Positions 2,710 to 8,989 of a DNA stretch of 11,469 nt are shown here, piece after piece. Each line of letters starts with the position of its first letter. Positions within the stretch are counted from its first letter, which is position 1. Source of the DNA: Candidatus Shapirobacteria bacterium UBA4809 (GTDB taxonomy: Bacteria > Patescibacteriota > Microgenomatia > UBA12405); NCBI GenBank assembly GCA_002402535.1, contig DHGB01000036.1, forward strand, positions 7,875 through 19,343, given 5' to 3'. The notes under the pieces were generated by a model. The model was not told the origin of the DNA. It did not search any database and saw only the letters and a program-made list of their open reading frames with translations. Position numbers and translations under genes: made by a program.

Positions 2710-2737
2710 ATGTCGCACAATGTATCTTTTACGACTA
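2710..2737. other. Candidate dif-like Xer recombination site
   Basis: This 28-bp sequence can be read as two 11-bp arms around a 6-bp spacer: ATGTCGCACAA, TGTATC, TTTTACGACTA. The inner nine bases of the arms are an imperfect inverted repeat matching at 7 of 9 positions (GTCGCACAA against GTCGTAAAA). The left arm and spacer resemble the known proteobacterial dif consensus: CGCAnAATGTAT is shared with CGCATAATGTAT. The right arm matches the usual TTATGTTAAAT only weakly, at 4 of 11. It lies 298 bp upstream of the xer start. The arm/spacer architecture and location support a Xer site; no function has been shown. Confidence 0.4.
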
Positions 2738-3034: not shown

Positions 3035-3967
3035 ATGAATTTAGATTTAGCGACAGGAATCAGAAGATTTCTCGAACATTTGGAGGTAGAAAAGAACTGC
3101 TCTAAACTGACAATCAGAAATTATCAACATTATCTCGAAGTTCTCTTGAACTACATTGAGAAACAGAATCAGAAAACTCCCGAGGTGTCTGACATTGACC
3201 AAGAGACCATTAGAAGCTTTAGATTGTATTTATCAAGACAGGCTGGGATTGACGGTGAAATGAAAATTGTAACTCAGGGCTATTATGTAATTGCCCTGAG
3301 ATCTTTTTTAAAATGGCTGATTAAAAACGATTATGAGGTAATGCAGCCGGAAAAAATTGATGTGCCTAAAAATAAAGATCATTCTTTAAAGTTTTTAAAC
3401 GGTGAACAAATAGAAAGATTGTTAAATCAGCCCTTACTTTCGACAAAAGTTGGTATTCGAGACCGGGCTATTCTGGAGCTTTTGTTTTCAACTGGGCTTC
3501 GGGTTTCAGAGCTTACAAGGCTTAATCGTGATCAAATTAACCTAAATACCCGTGAATTTGGGGTAATTGGCAAGGGGGGTAAGGCGAGAGTGGTCTATAT
3601 TAGTAAAAGAGCGGTAATTTACGTTGATAAGTATTTAAAAACAAGAAGCGACAAGGATAGGCCCCTCTTTATTCGCTACGGAGGGAAAAAGGAAATTATT
3701 AATGAAGAGGAAAAAATGAGGCTCAGTCCCCGCTCGATTGAAAGAATAGTCAAGCATTATGTACGCCTGGCCAAATTACCGGTTGATGCCACGCCACATA
3801 CCCTCAGACATTCGATGGCCACGGACCTGCTACAGAGTGGCGCTGATATCAGGTCAGTCCAGGAAATGCTTGGTCATAAAAATATTGCTACGACTCAAAT
3901 TTATACCCATGTTACCAATGCCCGGCTTCGGGAAATTCATGATAAATTTCATTCAGGTAATAAATAA
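3035..3967 (+). CDS. xerC/xerD-like: Xer-family tyrosine recombinase, complete active site
   Basis: The protein has 310 residues, normal for XerC/XerD. Residues 1-105 are the N-terminal SAM-like core-binding domain (LTIRNYQHYL at 25-34, ALRSFLKWL at 87-95). Residues about 120-305 are the catalytic domain. All catalytic positions are present: Arg156 in STGLRVSEL, Lys180 in GKGGKARVV, His255 and Arg258 in PHTLRH, His281 in MLGH, and nucleophile Tyr290 in QIYTH. Xer proteins resolve chromosome dimers at dif by sequential strand exchange, normally with FtsK. I see no second recombinase in the window, so whether the cell uses one Xer or a pair cannot be said. The gene stands alone, with a dif-like sequence and repeats upstream and no phage or integron genes beside it, which favours a housekeeping role over a mobile integrase. 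A 30-residue polar insertion-like loop (about 203-232) precedes the final helices. Confidence 0.92.
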   Translation: MNLDLATGIRRFLEHLEVEKNCSKLTIRNYQHYLEVLLNYIEKQNQKTPEVSDIDQETIRSFRLYLSRQAGIDGEMKIVTQGYYVIALRSFLKWLIKNDYEVMQPEKIDVPKNKDHSLKFLNGEQIERLLNQPLLSTKVGIRDRAILELLFSTGLRVSELTRLNRDQINLNTREFGVIGKGGKARVVYISKRAVIYVDKYLKTRSDKDRPLFIRYGGKKEIINEEEKMRLSPRSIERIVKHYVRLAKLPVDATPHTLRHSMATDLLQSGADIRSVQEMLGHKNIATTQIYTHVTNARLREIHDKFHSGNK

Positions 3968-4178: not shown

Positions 4179-6848
4179 CTATATTTTTTGGGGTAGCTCC
4201 CCTTCTTTCTCATTTTTCTGTAAAACCGTCATGGCTGAGACCTTGTCGTCATTTTTAAGTCTCATTAAAATAACCCCACGGGTGTTGCGAGACAGTGTCG
4301 GAATATTTTTGAGAGGAAGCTTGATGGTCACCGCTTTTTTGCTAACAAAGAGAACCTGTTCATCGTTTTCCGTGACGACTACCGTAGCAGCTAAATTGCC
4401 AGTTTTGCTCGTAAGATTGGCAACTTTTACACCAAAACCGCCCCGTTTTTGAAGAGGATAGAGATAAACGTCACTCCGTTTGCCGACTCCATTTTCAGTA
4501 ATGACTAAGAGGTGGCGGAAAAATTTTCTCTTCTTTTCTTCTTTAATGGCCAGAACACTTTGAGGAAGAACATCAATGCCAACCAGATAATCATTTTCTT
4601 TGAGAGAAATTCCTCGAACGCCACGAGTATGTCGACCCATGGGGCGGCAGTCAACTTCATTGAAACGAATGCATTTACCGGCGTGAGTGGCCATAAAAAT
4701 TTGGTCATTGCCGGAGGTAAGCTTGGCCCAGATTAATTCATCTTTGGGGTCGAGCTTGATCGCGGTGAGTCCAGATTGACGGATATTTTTGAATTTTTCG
4801 ATGGCAGTTTTTTTGATGGTACCTTTTTTGGTGGCTAAAAGGATGTATTTTGCCGGATTATTTTTACTGATGGGTAAAACAGCCTGAACGATTTCACCTT
4901 GAATGATATTGATTAAATTAATGACAGCTTGGCCTTTTGATTGACGACTACTTTCATTGATATCCCAAACTTTTATTTTAAAACAGCGACCTTTGTTGGT
5001 AAAAATTAAAAGATCGTCGTGAGTATCAACGAAAAGAAGGCTATCGACCTCATCTTCACTTTTGGTGGCCATCCCCATAACACCGACACCACCACGCTGT
5101 TGGGTCCGGTAGGTTTCCATGGGAACTCTTTTGATATAACCGCCACGAGTTAGAGTGACCAAAGTTGCTTCATTCGGAATTAAATCTTCATCACTGAACT
5201 GCTCAAGCCCCTTGGCGTAAATTTTAGTTAAACGAGAATCGGCGTATTTTTCGGTAATTTCTTTGTTTTCAGATTTAATCATGGCTACCATTTTTTCAGG
5301 AATGGTAATAATGGCGGTTAAATTGGTGATGGTTTCTTCAACTTCTTTATATTCTTCGTCGAGTTTTTGACGCTCGAGCCCGGAAAGCTTTTTGAGTTGC
5401 ATTTCTAAAATGGCTTGGGCTTGAAGATCAGTAAAGCCGAATTTATCCATGAGCTTGGTCTTGGCATCTTCATCGGGTTTTGTGCCTCGGATAGTTTTGA
5501 TTATTTCGTCAATAACATCCAGAGCTTTTTTGAGCCCTTCAAGGATATGGGCCCTCATATAAGCTGATTTGAGATCAAAAATACTGCGACGACGGATGAC
5601 ATTTTCCCGGTGTCTAAGGAATAAAAGTAATATTTGGCGGAGATTAAGAGTCTGAGGGATACCATTAACCAAGGCCAATAAATTGGCAGAATACGATGAT
5701 TGAAGGGCAGTATATTTAAATAGTTTATTTAAAATGGCTTTGGGTTTGCCGTTCTTTTTTATTTCAATAACGACCCGAATTCCGTGACGGTCAGACTCAT
5801 CCCGAAGATCAGAAATACCGATAATTTTTTTGTCGGTAACCAACTGGGCGATCTTTTGAATCATCTCGGACTTGTTGACCTGATAGGGAATCTCGGTAAT
5901 GATAATTCTGATTTTGCCAGATTTAGTTTCTTCGATATTTGTTTTACCCCGGAGAGTAAATTTACCCCGGCCGGTAGTGTACATTTCTAAAATACCGGTT
6001 TTACCGTAAATTTCACCGGCAGTGGGAAAATCGGGGCCGGTAATTATCTTGGTCAGGTCCTCGATGGTAGCGGTAGTTTCAAAATTAAAAGATAATTTTT
6101 GAAGCTCACGGAGAGGTTTTAGAACTATTTCCTGAGTACTAAGATTTTTCTCTAAAAGAGGGTTAATTTCAATTTCATTTTCCTGTTTTTCAAGGGTAGC
6201 GTGATCTAAAATAAAGTCGAGTCCACTACAGATTTCTTTTAAATTATGGGGTGGGATTTTGGTGGCCATACCGACAGCTATACCGTCGGCACCATTTAAG
6301 AGCAAATTGGGAATTCGGGTGGGTAGGACTTCGGGCTCTTTGAGGGTAGCGTCGAAATTATCGACCATGGAAACAGTGTCTTTTTCAATATCAGTGATTA
6401 ATTCCGGAGAAATTTTACTCATCTTGACTTCGGTATAACGCATGGCGGCTGGAGGGTCGCCATCAATAGAACCGAAATTACCCTGACCATTAACAAGGGT
6501 GTATCTTAGGGAGAAATCTTGAGCCAGACGTACCATGGAGCCATAAACGGCCATGTCGCCGTGAGGATGATATTTACCGAGAACTTCGCCGACAACTTTG
6601 GCTGATTTGGAATAGTGTCCACCGGGAGTCAAACCCATTTGGTTCATAGCATAGATAATGCGGCGATGCACTGGTTTCATGCCATCACGGACATCAGGCA
6701 GAGCTCGGGCGACGATAACTGACATGGCATAGTCGAGATAGGACTTTTCCATCTCGGGGACAATATCGATATCCAAAATCTTGCCAATATTATTAACAAA
6801 GGCAGGAGTATCATTAACAATAGTGTTTTTTTGTTTATCTATGGGCAT
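4179..6848 (-). CDS. gyrA: DNA gyrase subunit A
   Basis: The protein has 889 residues. The breakage-reunion domain (about 30-510) shows [36 protein letters not shown] (91-98), [12 protein letters not shown] and the catalytic Tyr138 in AAMRYTE. The C-terminal domain (about 545-875) has six beta-pinwheel blades. The GyrA box at 583-589 reads QQRGGVG instead of QRRGG(K/R)G; a second similar motif, QKRGGFG, lies at 800-806. With GyrB it forms the A2B2 complex that introduces negative supercoils. Two quinolone-contact positions are unusual: Met99 (E. coli Ser83) and Gly103 (E. coli Asp87). An insertion of nearly 40 residues lies between HNL (201-203) and GPDFP (271-275). The ATG is 5 nt from the gyrB stop, with no Shine-Dalgarno. 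ParC is the main alternative, but pairing with gyrB, a six-bladed tail and a recognisable GyrA box favour GyrA. Confidence 0.93.
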
Positions 6849-6852
6849 AAAA

Positions 6853-8793
6853 TTAAATATCCAAATTAGCTAAATGGGCATGGGTAACGATAAACTTTTT
6901 GCGCGGTGGGACTTCGTCACCCATTAAAATTCTAAAAGTTTCGTCGGCTTTTTCGGCGTCGGCAATCGAGATTCTTTTGAGAAGTCTTGTCTCTGGATTC
7001 ATAGTAGTTTCCCAGAGCTGCTGAGGATTCATTTCTCCGAGACCCTTGTAGCGCTGTTGGTCGTAGTTTTTGGAAGTATCGAGAGTCTTTAAATAGGCCT
7101 CTTTTTCTTCGTCGGTATAGACATATTTGACTGTTTTCCCTTGCTTTATTTTATAAAGTGGTGGCATGGCGATATAAACATAACCGTGTTCAATTAAACC
7201 GGGCAGATGGCGGAAGATAAAAGTCAGTAAAAGGGTGGCAATGTGGGCGCCGTCAACATCAGCATCAGACATTAAAATTATCCGGTGATAACGCAATTTC
7301 TCTATATTAAAGGTGTCGCCAATTCCCATGCCGAGGGCAACAATAAAGTCTTTTAATTTATCGGAGCTAACGACTTTATCAAGTCTCATCCCTTCGGTGT
7401 TTAAGGCTTTACCCCAAAGAGGGAGGATGGCTTGGAATTTACGATCCCGACCTTGTTTGGCGCTACCACCAGCTGAATCTCCTTCGACAATATAAATTTC
7501 ACATTCTTCAGGTTTTTTACTTTGACAATCGGCAAGTTTACCGGGAAGACCCATAGAATCGAAGGCACCTTTGCGCATAATGGCATCTTTAGCGGCCTTG
7601 GCAGCTTTGCGGATTTGGATAGTCAAAAGGGCTTTGCTGATAATGATTTTGGCGGTATCGGGATGTTCTTCAAAATAAGTATCGAGTTGTTCTCTAACAA
7701 TTTTATTGACAATCGGTTGGACTTCAGAATTACCAAGCTTGCCTTTGGTTTGGCCTTCAAACTGAAGATCTTTACTCCCCATTTTAATGGAAAGAGCGGC
7801 AGTGAGACCTTCACGAACATCGTCACCAGTAATGGTGTCGTCTTTGTTTTTTATCATTTCTTTGCGCTCAGCATAGTCTTTTATGGCTTTGGTTAGGGCA
7901 ATTTTAAAGCCTGTTAAGTGAGTGCCGCCTTCGTGGGTGTTGATGATATTGACATAGGAGGGAGTGTTTTCCTGAAAAGAATCGTTGTACTGAATGGCGA
8001 CTTCGACATTAACGCCATCACTTTCCCCCTGAATGTAGATGGGATCATGAATGACGTTTTTATTTTTATTTAATTCTCGAAGCAGGGATAAAATACCGCC
8101 TTCAAAAAAATAATGGTGTTCGCTATGATTGCGGTCATCATAAAAATGAAAGTAAATTTTGCTGGTTAAATAAGCTCGATCTTTGAGTGATTTAATAATG
8201 GTTTTGTTGTCAAACTCGGTAGTTTCTTTAAAGATTTCTGGATCAGGATAAAAAGTAGTAGTGGTGCCGGTAATGCCGCCGGGAAGGATACTTTCGAGTC
8301 TCTCAATTTTGCTTTTAGGAATGGTAGTTAATTTTGTTTTAACCTTACCTTTGGAAAATTCGATAAAATGAGTTTCCTTTTCCCGGCGAACTTCAACTTG
8401 AAAAAGAGTCGAAAGAGCATTGACACAGGCAGCGCCCACCCCATGAAGCCCTCCAGAAACTTTGTAGGCTGTGCCTTCAAATTTACCACCGGAATGGAGG
8501 GTGGTCATGATGACTTCGATAGCAGGTTTTTTGTATTTGGGCATGATATCAATAGGAATGCCCCGGCCATCATCGGCGACGGTAGCAGAATTGTCGGGAT
8601 GAATGATAATCCAAATATTTTTGGCAAAGCCAGCTAAAGCCTCGTCAATAGAATTGTCGATGATTTCGTTGAGACAGTGATGAAGACCAGTGGTATCAGT
8701 TGAACCAATATACATGGCGGGACGTTTTCTGACCGGCTCAAGACCCTCGAGAACAACAATTTGTTTAGAAGTATAATCTGTGGTTTCTGGCAT
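6853..8793 (-). CDS. gyrB: DNA gyrase subunit B
   Basis: From the ATG at 8793 the protein has 646 residues, the size of the short GyrB type without the extra proteobacterial insert. The GHKL ATPase domain shows Glu43 and Asn47 in [17 protein letters not shown] (74-80), and [15 protein letters not shown] (114-128). The transducer includes the QTKGKLGN loop (348-355). The TOPRIM domain has [15 protein letters not shown] (437-451) and DADVDG (510-515), whose Glu437, Asp510 and Asp512 bind Mg2+. The tail [19 protein letters not shown] is standard. Trp460 (PLWGK) replaces the usual Lys/Arg, equivalent to E. coli Lys447. An in-frame TTG at 8937 would add 48 residues of non-conserved hydrophobic sequence, but it lies upstream of the predicted promoter, so I reject that start. 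The gap to gyrA is only 4 nt, so the two are one operon. Confidence 0.94.
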
Positions 8794-8810
8794 ATTGAAA
8801 AATAAAAAAA

Positions 8811-8831
8811 TCCAAAGTCTAAATTCTAAAA
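8811..8831. repeat. Three degenerate heptad repeats in the gyrB leader
   Basis: TCCAAAG, TCTAAAT and TCTAAAA follow each other without gaps (consensus TCTAAAN; on the gyrB strand NTTTAGA). A similar 7-bp pattern (AAATCTA, AATTATA, AAATCTA) occurs at 2628-2648. They look like short dispersed AT-rich tandem repeats; no function can be assigned. Confidence 0.4.
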
Positions 8832-8840
8832 TATTTAGAA
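8824..8840. promoter_or_regulatory. Palindrome in the gyrB leader, possible operator or RNA hairpin
   Basis: TTCTAAA and TTTAGAA form a perfect 7-bp inverted repeat around ATA. It lies about 11-27 nt downstream of the transcription start expected from the promoter at 8858-8885. It could be a binding site through which gyrase expression is controlled, or a hairpin in the 5' UTR. Evidence is limited to symmetry and position. Confidence 0.35.
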
Positions 8841-8857
8841 TAATTAGGGATAAATTA

Positions 8858-8885
8858 ATTGTAGCAGATAAAAATAGCTTGACAA
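8858..8885 (-). promoter_or_regulatory. Sigma-70-type promoter of gyrBA
   Basis: On the minus strand, TTGTCA (8885-8880, one mismatch to TTGACA) is followed after 16 nt by TACAAT (8863-8858, one mismatch to TATAAT). A TGC directly before the -10 makes it an extended -10. Transcription would start near 8851, giving a leader of about 58 nt before the ATG at 8793. This supports that start over the TTG at 8937. Confidence 0.6.
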
Positions 8886-8989
8886 TAAGCAAATATGATG
8901 GAAAGATAGGCCAAATAAAATGATAAAACCATATCAAAATAGGTAAAATTAAGTGCTAATTTATAGCCTTAAATAAGGTAAATTTTTTG

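Follow-up and report, generated by a model that had tools for sequence, protein, structure and literature searches.

Introduction

A near-palindromic 28-mer lies upstream of a gene for a Xer recombinase in the DNA studied here, and the initial annotation read it as a dif site. The question raised by this locus is whether the 28-mer is indeed the place where chromosome dimers are resolved in this member of the Patescibacteria, and which of the encoded recombinases acts on it. The window, that is the whole stretch of 11,469 bases that was analysed (G000:C55:7875-19343), belongs to a draft genome of 555,024 bases in 67 contigs, and its relevant features are:

2710..2737, + strand: predicted dif site with 11-6-11 layout (single-copy at up to 3 mismatches, conservation 0.92 vs 0.55, found in 58 of 80 wider loci)
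2710..2720, + strand: predicted left Xer-binding arm, ATGTCGCACAA, assigned by sequence (arm positions 3-6, 8, 10 and 11 invariant in 58 sites)
2721..2726, + strand: 6-bp centre TGTATC, where strand exchange would occur (lineage-specific spacers, C-ending in 58 of 58 sites)
2727..2737, + strand: predicted right Xer-binding arm, TTTTACGACTA (TTTT and CGAC unchanged across the 58 sites)
3035..3967, + strand: xer, encoding a 310-aa tyrosine recombinase (Pfam Phage_integrase 1.8e-42, Phage_int_SAM_1 3.1e-11; six catalytic residues complete)

The 28-mer and its surroundings

The 28-mer reads ATGTCGCACAA-TGTATC-TTTTACGACTA and sits between xer, whose ATG at 3035 is 297 bases away, and an ORF that ends at 2367. 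Its layout, a 6-bp centre between inverted arms of 11 bp each, is that of dif, and the annotated coordinates, sequence, 11-6-11 division and distance to the Xer gene (given as about 300 bp) were all correct. The inner 9-bp arms are identical at 7 of 9 positions, as claimed, and the full arms at 7 of 11. The core CGCANAATGTAT, noted at the outset as shared with proteobacterial dif, is indeed present, with a single copy in the window (at 2714). Symmetry alone is weak evidence, as the inner-arm symmetry is equalled by 28 of the 11,442 28-mers of the window, and 15 of 28 letters are identical to E. coli dif (taken from a table in PMC2731167). Since these two properties carry little weight by themselves, it is conservation that makes the 28-mer more than a chance resemblance. 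A search of the window against Rfam gave two matches, both under the gathering score (E 0.3 and 0.5).

Two further observations concern the neighbourhood. The genes gyrA and gyrB follow xer on the other strand (window 4179-8937); they adjoin the presumed terminus site and are directed towards it. The word TATCCTATA occurs at 2465, 2488, 4151 and 4175 (one copy inverted) and thus flanks the dif-xer unit on both sides; its four copies in the window compare with 0.15 expected from other chromosomes of the class, and at least one copy is present in 10 of 10 loci (L002-L011).

Conservation of the site

In its own 555-kb draft genome, the 28-mer is the sole match at up to 3 mismatches. Among 29 loci from the same family, fetched via the Xer protein, at least 25 of the 28 letters are kept in 26; the remaining three are a truncated contig (L022) and two loci, L027 and L030, which retain 20 and 22 letters, respectively, and carry matching changes in both arms. 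When 28 of the 29 family loci (L002-L030, the truncated L022 being omitted) were aligned, mean column conservation was 0.92 for the site and 0.55 for the 150-bp flanks.

Throughout the Microgenomatia, a matching 11-6-11 site was found upstream of xer in 58 of the 80 xer loci taken from named genomes, at distances of 216-4536 bp and always in one orientation, as judged by the unequal inner bases. These loci are from one class and so are not independent. Of the 22 loci without a site, 18 have less than 5 kb of upstream DNA on their contig; those with 5 kb upstream are L057, L062, L102 and L103, and L062 is probably contig G301:C4, where a site lies about 5.3 kb upstream. Downstream of xer there are 3 pattern matches in 358 kb, and a control pattern, read backwards, gave 0 matches in the 675 kb of the 80 wider loci. 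Both checks on relatives and copy number that the initial annotation had called for, a single copy in the own genome and retention in genomes with the same xer neighbourhood, have thus come out in its favour.

At the level of whole genomes, the class pattern (at most 1 mismatch) matched in 277 of 373 class genomes, in 264 of these at one place, and was absent within 1 mismatch from the other 96; any match to the control pattern was found in 23 of the 373. More than one place on a strand was seen in 13 of the 277 matched genomes, and in the 12 multi-site genomes examined a second exact match occurs only in G030, on a phage contig. Phylum-wide, 186 of 380 genomes gave a pattern match, made up of 26 of the 33 from the class and 160 of the 347 from outside it, the right arm often being TTATGCGAC or TTGTGCGAC. 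The site also co-occurs with the recombinase: an orthologue of the adjacent Xer (at least 300 bits, or split in two pieces) is present in 48 of 56 relatives, of which 45 have the site (47 by a looser pattern), and the site is matched in 3 of the 8 relatives without this orthologue, although some matches in this comparison (G035, G042, G055) are one-strand and one-mismatch and may be due to chance.

The 58 sites share invariant letters in the left arm (GTCG, A, AA) and in the right arm (TTTT, CGAC). Their spacers are TAATAC (32), TATAAC (9), TGTATC (7), TGATAC (5) and others (5), all ending in C. The two arms agree at 7 of 11 positions in 6 sites, at 8 in 21, at 9 in 21 and at 10 in 10, which places the window copy at the low end of the range; the arms of E. 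coli dif agree at 6 of 11. The concern that the divergent right arm might mean a partly accidental similarity is not upheld, as the arms of the 58 relatives agree at 7-10 of 11 positions.

Position relative to the terminus signature in single-contig relatives

The window genome is a 67-contig draft, and terminus position was judged in single-contig relatives, using skew tables that exclude wholly masked windows. In three of them (G373, G049 and G058) the site coincides with the peak of cumulative GC skew or is at most one sampled step away from it, and the coding strand switches there, in agreement with the skew check originally suggested; together with single copy and conservation, this supports the dif reading.

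In G373 (CP055307.1, 901,682 bp) the site at 779,670 falls inside the sampled window of the skew peak, and coding bias across it runs from +0.49 through +0.06 to -0.85. This agreement is approximate, because full masking affects three of the sampled windows, the skew of one window past the site is slightly contrary, and the breakpoint of a two-segment fit falls near 675 kb, about 105 kb ahead of the site. The site of G049 (1,020,299 bp) is at 112,658, where the skew peak forms a plateau (coding bias +0.67, +0.03, -0.86), and that of G058 (785,860 bp) at 620,913, one sampled step past the peak (+0.60, -0.02, -0.62). Along the shorter way, the angle between site and dnaA is about 101 degrees in G373, 129 in G049 and 134 in G058. 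In G374 (CP066693.1; site at 754,836) coding bias is +0.77 before the site and -0.32 in the site window, the neighbouring windows being masked. On a contig of the same genus (G006), the skew at the site falls from +0.35 to +0.18 with its sign unchanged, and coding bias changes from +0.40 to -0.42; two windows farther along show the opposite coding bias.

The same switch is seen when the 58 sites are pooled in 1.5-kb bins. The share of coding bases pointing right is 97, 65 and 99% in the bins that approach the site from the left, and 66, 43, 29, 12 and 7% to its right; two thinner bins beyond these give 19 and 42%.

A candidate for polar guidance was given up. The KOPS-like word GGGNAGGG is directed towards the site 91 times vs 19 away from it in three sampled chromosomes, ranking 2 among 56 letter-matched words, and these controls make its bias inseparable from strand composition.

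The recombinases and FtsK

The Xer protein encoded beside the site has all six catalytic residues (R-K-H-R-H-Y) in 109 of 109 loci, a set that is not independent and includes at least 7 duplicate pairs in which the same contig occurs twice (e.g. L003/L032). It misses the NCBIfam cut-offs for XerC (250.4 vs 335.15) and XerD (247.4 vs 329.6) and barely passes that for archaeal XerA (220.6 vs 220), a model by which it scores lower than by those for XerC and XerD. Its best match of solved structure is E. coli XerD (1a0p), while the XerH chain 5jjv is matched distantly (3e-14). The initial annotation had likened the locus to the single-Xer arrangements of XerS and XerH. The arrangement does fit, but the protein is far under the XerS cut-off (121.9 vs 267), being nearest to XerC, XerD and archaeal XerA, and a degenerate second paralogue is present.

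For this reason the term “lone” Xer, also used initially, applies to the immediate vicinity of the site but not to the genome. The second paralogue is encoded elsewhere (G000:C33:14567-15436, L270). It keeps R, R, H and Y of the active site; the catalytic lysine is replaced by E in 31 and by N in 1 of 32 loci, and the HxxR histidine by N in 32 of 32 (drawn from L270 and its relatives L414-L443, L278 and L279). A pair of catalytically complete Xer proteins, as in XerCD systems, is therefore not what these loci encode. The second paralogue was matched in 56 of 56 relatives, where the weakest matches are merely the first Xer itself. FtsK-gamma scored above the cut-off in 8 of 8 genomes searched.

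Proposed function and alternative explanations

At the level of sequence, these comparisons establish a conserved 11-6-11 site with inverted arms that mostly occurs once per genome, has a fixed orientation upstream of xer and carries a terminus signature in single-contig relatives. Of several possible explanations, we favour one in which the 28-mer is the chromosomal dif and the target of the Xer encoded 297 bp downstream, probably under the control of FtsK, and we consider this reading as a whole likely to be correct. Its parts differ in strength. That the 28-mer is a dif appears highly probable; that the adjacent Xer is the single catalytic species is fairly likely; and that FtsK controls the reaction is what we would lean towards.

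In the proposed process, two Xer protomers would bind the two similar arms of a site, two such sites would pair, and strands would be cut and exchanged across the 6-bp centre, so that a chromosome dimer may be converted into two monomers at division. The direction of the site would be set by its unequal inner bases (CAA on the left, TTTT on the right) and by the spacer. Since the two arms closely resemble each other and the active site is complete in just one of the paralogues, the catalytic tetramer would most likely consist of the adjacent Xer alone. FtsK, which is encoded with its gamma domain, would most likely bring the sites into alignment and trigger the reaction.

The same dif could instead be served by a mixed tetramer, in which the conserved paralogue binds one arm and has a structuring or regulating, non-cutting role beside the adjacent Xer. 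Known XerCD systems use two paralogues (PMC5357621), and the occurrence of the second protein in 56 of 56 relatives (weakest matches as above), with R, R, H and Y retained, would fit such a role. We nevertheless regard this as unlikely, given that its lysine is E or N and its HxxR histidine N in all 32 loci, that the arms are nearly alike, and that in the window genome its gene is located away from the site.

Explanations that dispense with dif fare worse. Tyrosine recombinases are often integrases, and sites of the same arm type are found on phage contigs, so that the 28-mer might be the attachment site of a mobile element with the adjacent Xer as its integrase. Such an element would hardly be expected mostly at one place per genome across the class, in a fixed orientation upstream of xer and at the terminus signature of single-contig relatives, and the named genes of the window include no phage genes; we judge this explanation very improbable. 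More improbable still, the palindrome might serve as an operator for xer or another nearby gene: it is intergenic and 297 bp ahead of xer, which would suit such a role, but in relatives the distance to xer ranges over 216-4536 bp, the layout is that of dif, and in single-contig relatives the site coincides with the terminus signature.

Comparison with known systems

The dif/Xer system proposed here is reminiscent of archaeal XerA/dif, where a 28-bp 11-6-11 site with few arm mismatches is served by one recombinase whose gene is sometimes beside dif (PMC2958812, PMC5357621). The adjacent Xer also reaches, if barely, the NCBIfam XerA cut-off. Archaeal dif is often 122-144 degrees from oriC (PMC2958812, PMC5357621), compared with about 101-134 degrees from dnaA in the present relatives. 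The two differ in that Archaea are described as lacking FtsK, while here the host is bacterial, encodes FtsK-gamma and retains a degenerate second Xer. The XerCD/dif system of E. coli and other proteobacteria shares the 11-6-11 layout, the CGCANAATGTAT core, the terminus position as indicated here by single-contig relatives, and FtsK (PMC2731167), but the arms of E. coli dif agree at 6 of 11 rather than 7-10 of 11 positions, and here one competent Xer is linked to the site.

Among the single-recombinase systems, XerS/difSL of streptococci and lactococci likewise has one recombinase gene adjoining its site, although difSL is 31 bp long with an 11-bp centre (PMC5357621), unlike the 28 bp and 6-bp centre found here. 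XerH/difH resembles our case in its single recombinase, whereas the arms of difH measure 11 and 10 bp and differ in sequence (PMC5357621) and the 5jjv match is distant. XerL/dif of Legionellales is a single-recombinase system that was long overlooked and whose dif is mimicked by a mobile element (PMC9765430); it belongs to another lineage, and the likeness is drawn from its published description.

The literature searched, mainly openly available journal papers, yielded no description of dif in Patescibacteria/CPR. PMC6251912 names dif solely in a reference title, and Kono et al. 2011 (PMC3025954) predicted dif in 16 phyla, with TM7 absent from the main text. For this very large group, most of which is uncultured, the site would mark the terminus by its sequence, which is of use in assembly checks and in estimates of replication rate. 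With a single cloned site and a single protein, the resolution of chromosome dimers in Patescibacteria also becomes open to direct test, and the retention of a second Xer with an incomplete active site calls for an explanation.

Related sites on phage contigs and in an array of accessory genes

In IMG/VR (loci L282-L402), the pattern GTCGYACAA-N6-TTTTRCGAC matched 91 stretches vs 12 for the read-backwards control. Analysis of 80 of the 91 gave 70 distinct 28-mers, and the 12 control matches comprise 4 distinct sequences, nine of them being identical. Of the 70 phage sites, 46 have a spacer with A as its last letter and 15 one with C; in the 38 distinct host sites the last letter is always C. 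As we read the ORF clusters, terminase-like and portal-like ORFs recur near the phage sites, with PHROGs confirmation for L276 only, and Xer-like proteins are encoded in the stretches of 3 of the 80 site-bearing phage loci. Among the 12 multi-site genomes examined, none showed a prophage enclosed by two sites.

L276 is the phage contig of G030 (G030:C4, site L276:5944-5971), an assignment by binning that may be in error. Its site has the same 28 letters as that of an IMG/VR relative, L385, whereas the 60-bp flanks are 70 and 65% identical; both were chosen by the pattern. The terminase of the G030 phage had one match (22.7% identity) among 50,697 phage records and no other copy among the 373 class genomes. 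A second site-bearing terminase matched at least 500 phage records from many hosts, all of those listed at less than 60% identity; these two terminases make up the host comparison.

An array of a different kind is present in G301 (G301:C3:111061-122056, L274), where 11 kb of DNA contain seven dif-like palindromes with 6-bp centres, and what lies between neighbouring palindromes is mostly a single accessory gene. This genome has the most loose-pattern matches of all 373 genomes (10 per strand, the next having 6). By itself this count proves little, since one genome (G299) has 11 matches to the control pattern; the stronger argument is the way the sites are spaced gene by gene. Phages that exploit Xer and the dif modules of Acinetobacter are likewise mobile DNA with altered-centre Xer sites (PMC5357621), and in Acinetobacter gene modules lie between such sites, comparable to the G301 array, which is known from its sequence.

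These data tentatively suggest, at somewhat less than even confidence, that Patescibacteria have their own kind of widespread dif/Xer system, with a near-palindromic dif, one competent Xer beside it and a conserved degenerate second Xer, and that this system may be exploited by diverse tailed phages having the same arms and a distinct spacer class, as well as by dif-module-like accessory genes in at least one chromosome (G301). If so, the distinct spacer class would favour recombination of phage with phage, resulting in single genomes, over integration at dif.

Beyond the letters fixed by the pattern, complementarity of the outer arms is mildly above that of shuffled sets, both in phages (1.00 vs 0.84, reached by 42 of 2000 shuffles) and in hosts (0.95 vs 0.75, reached by 69 of 2000).
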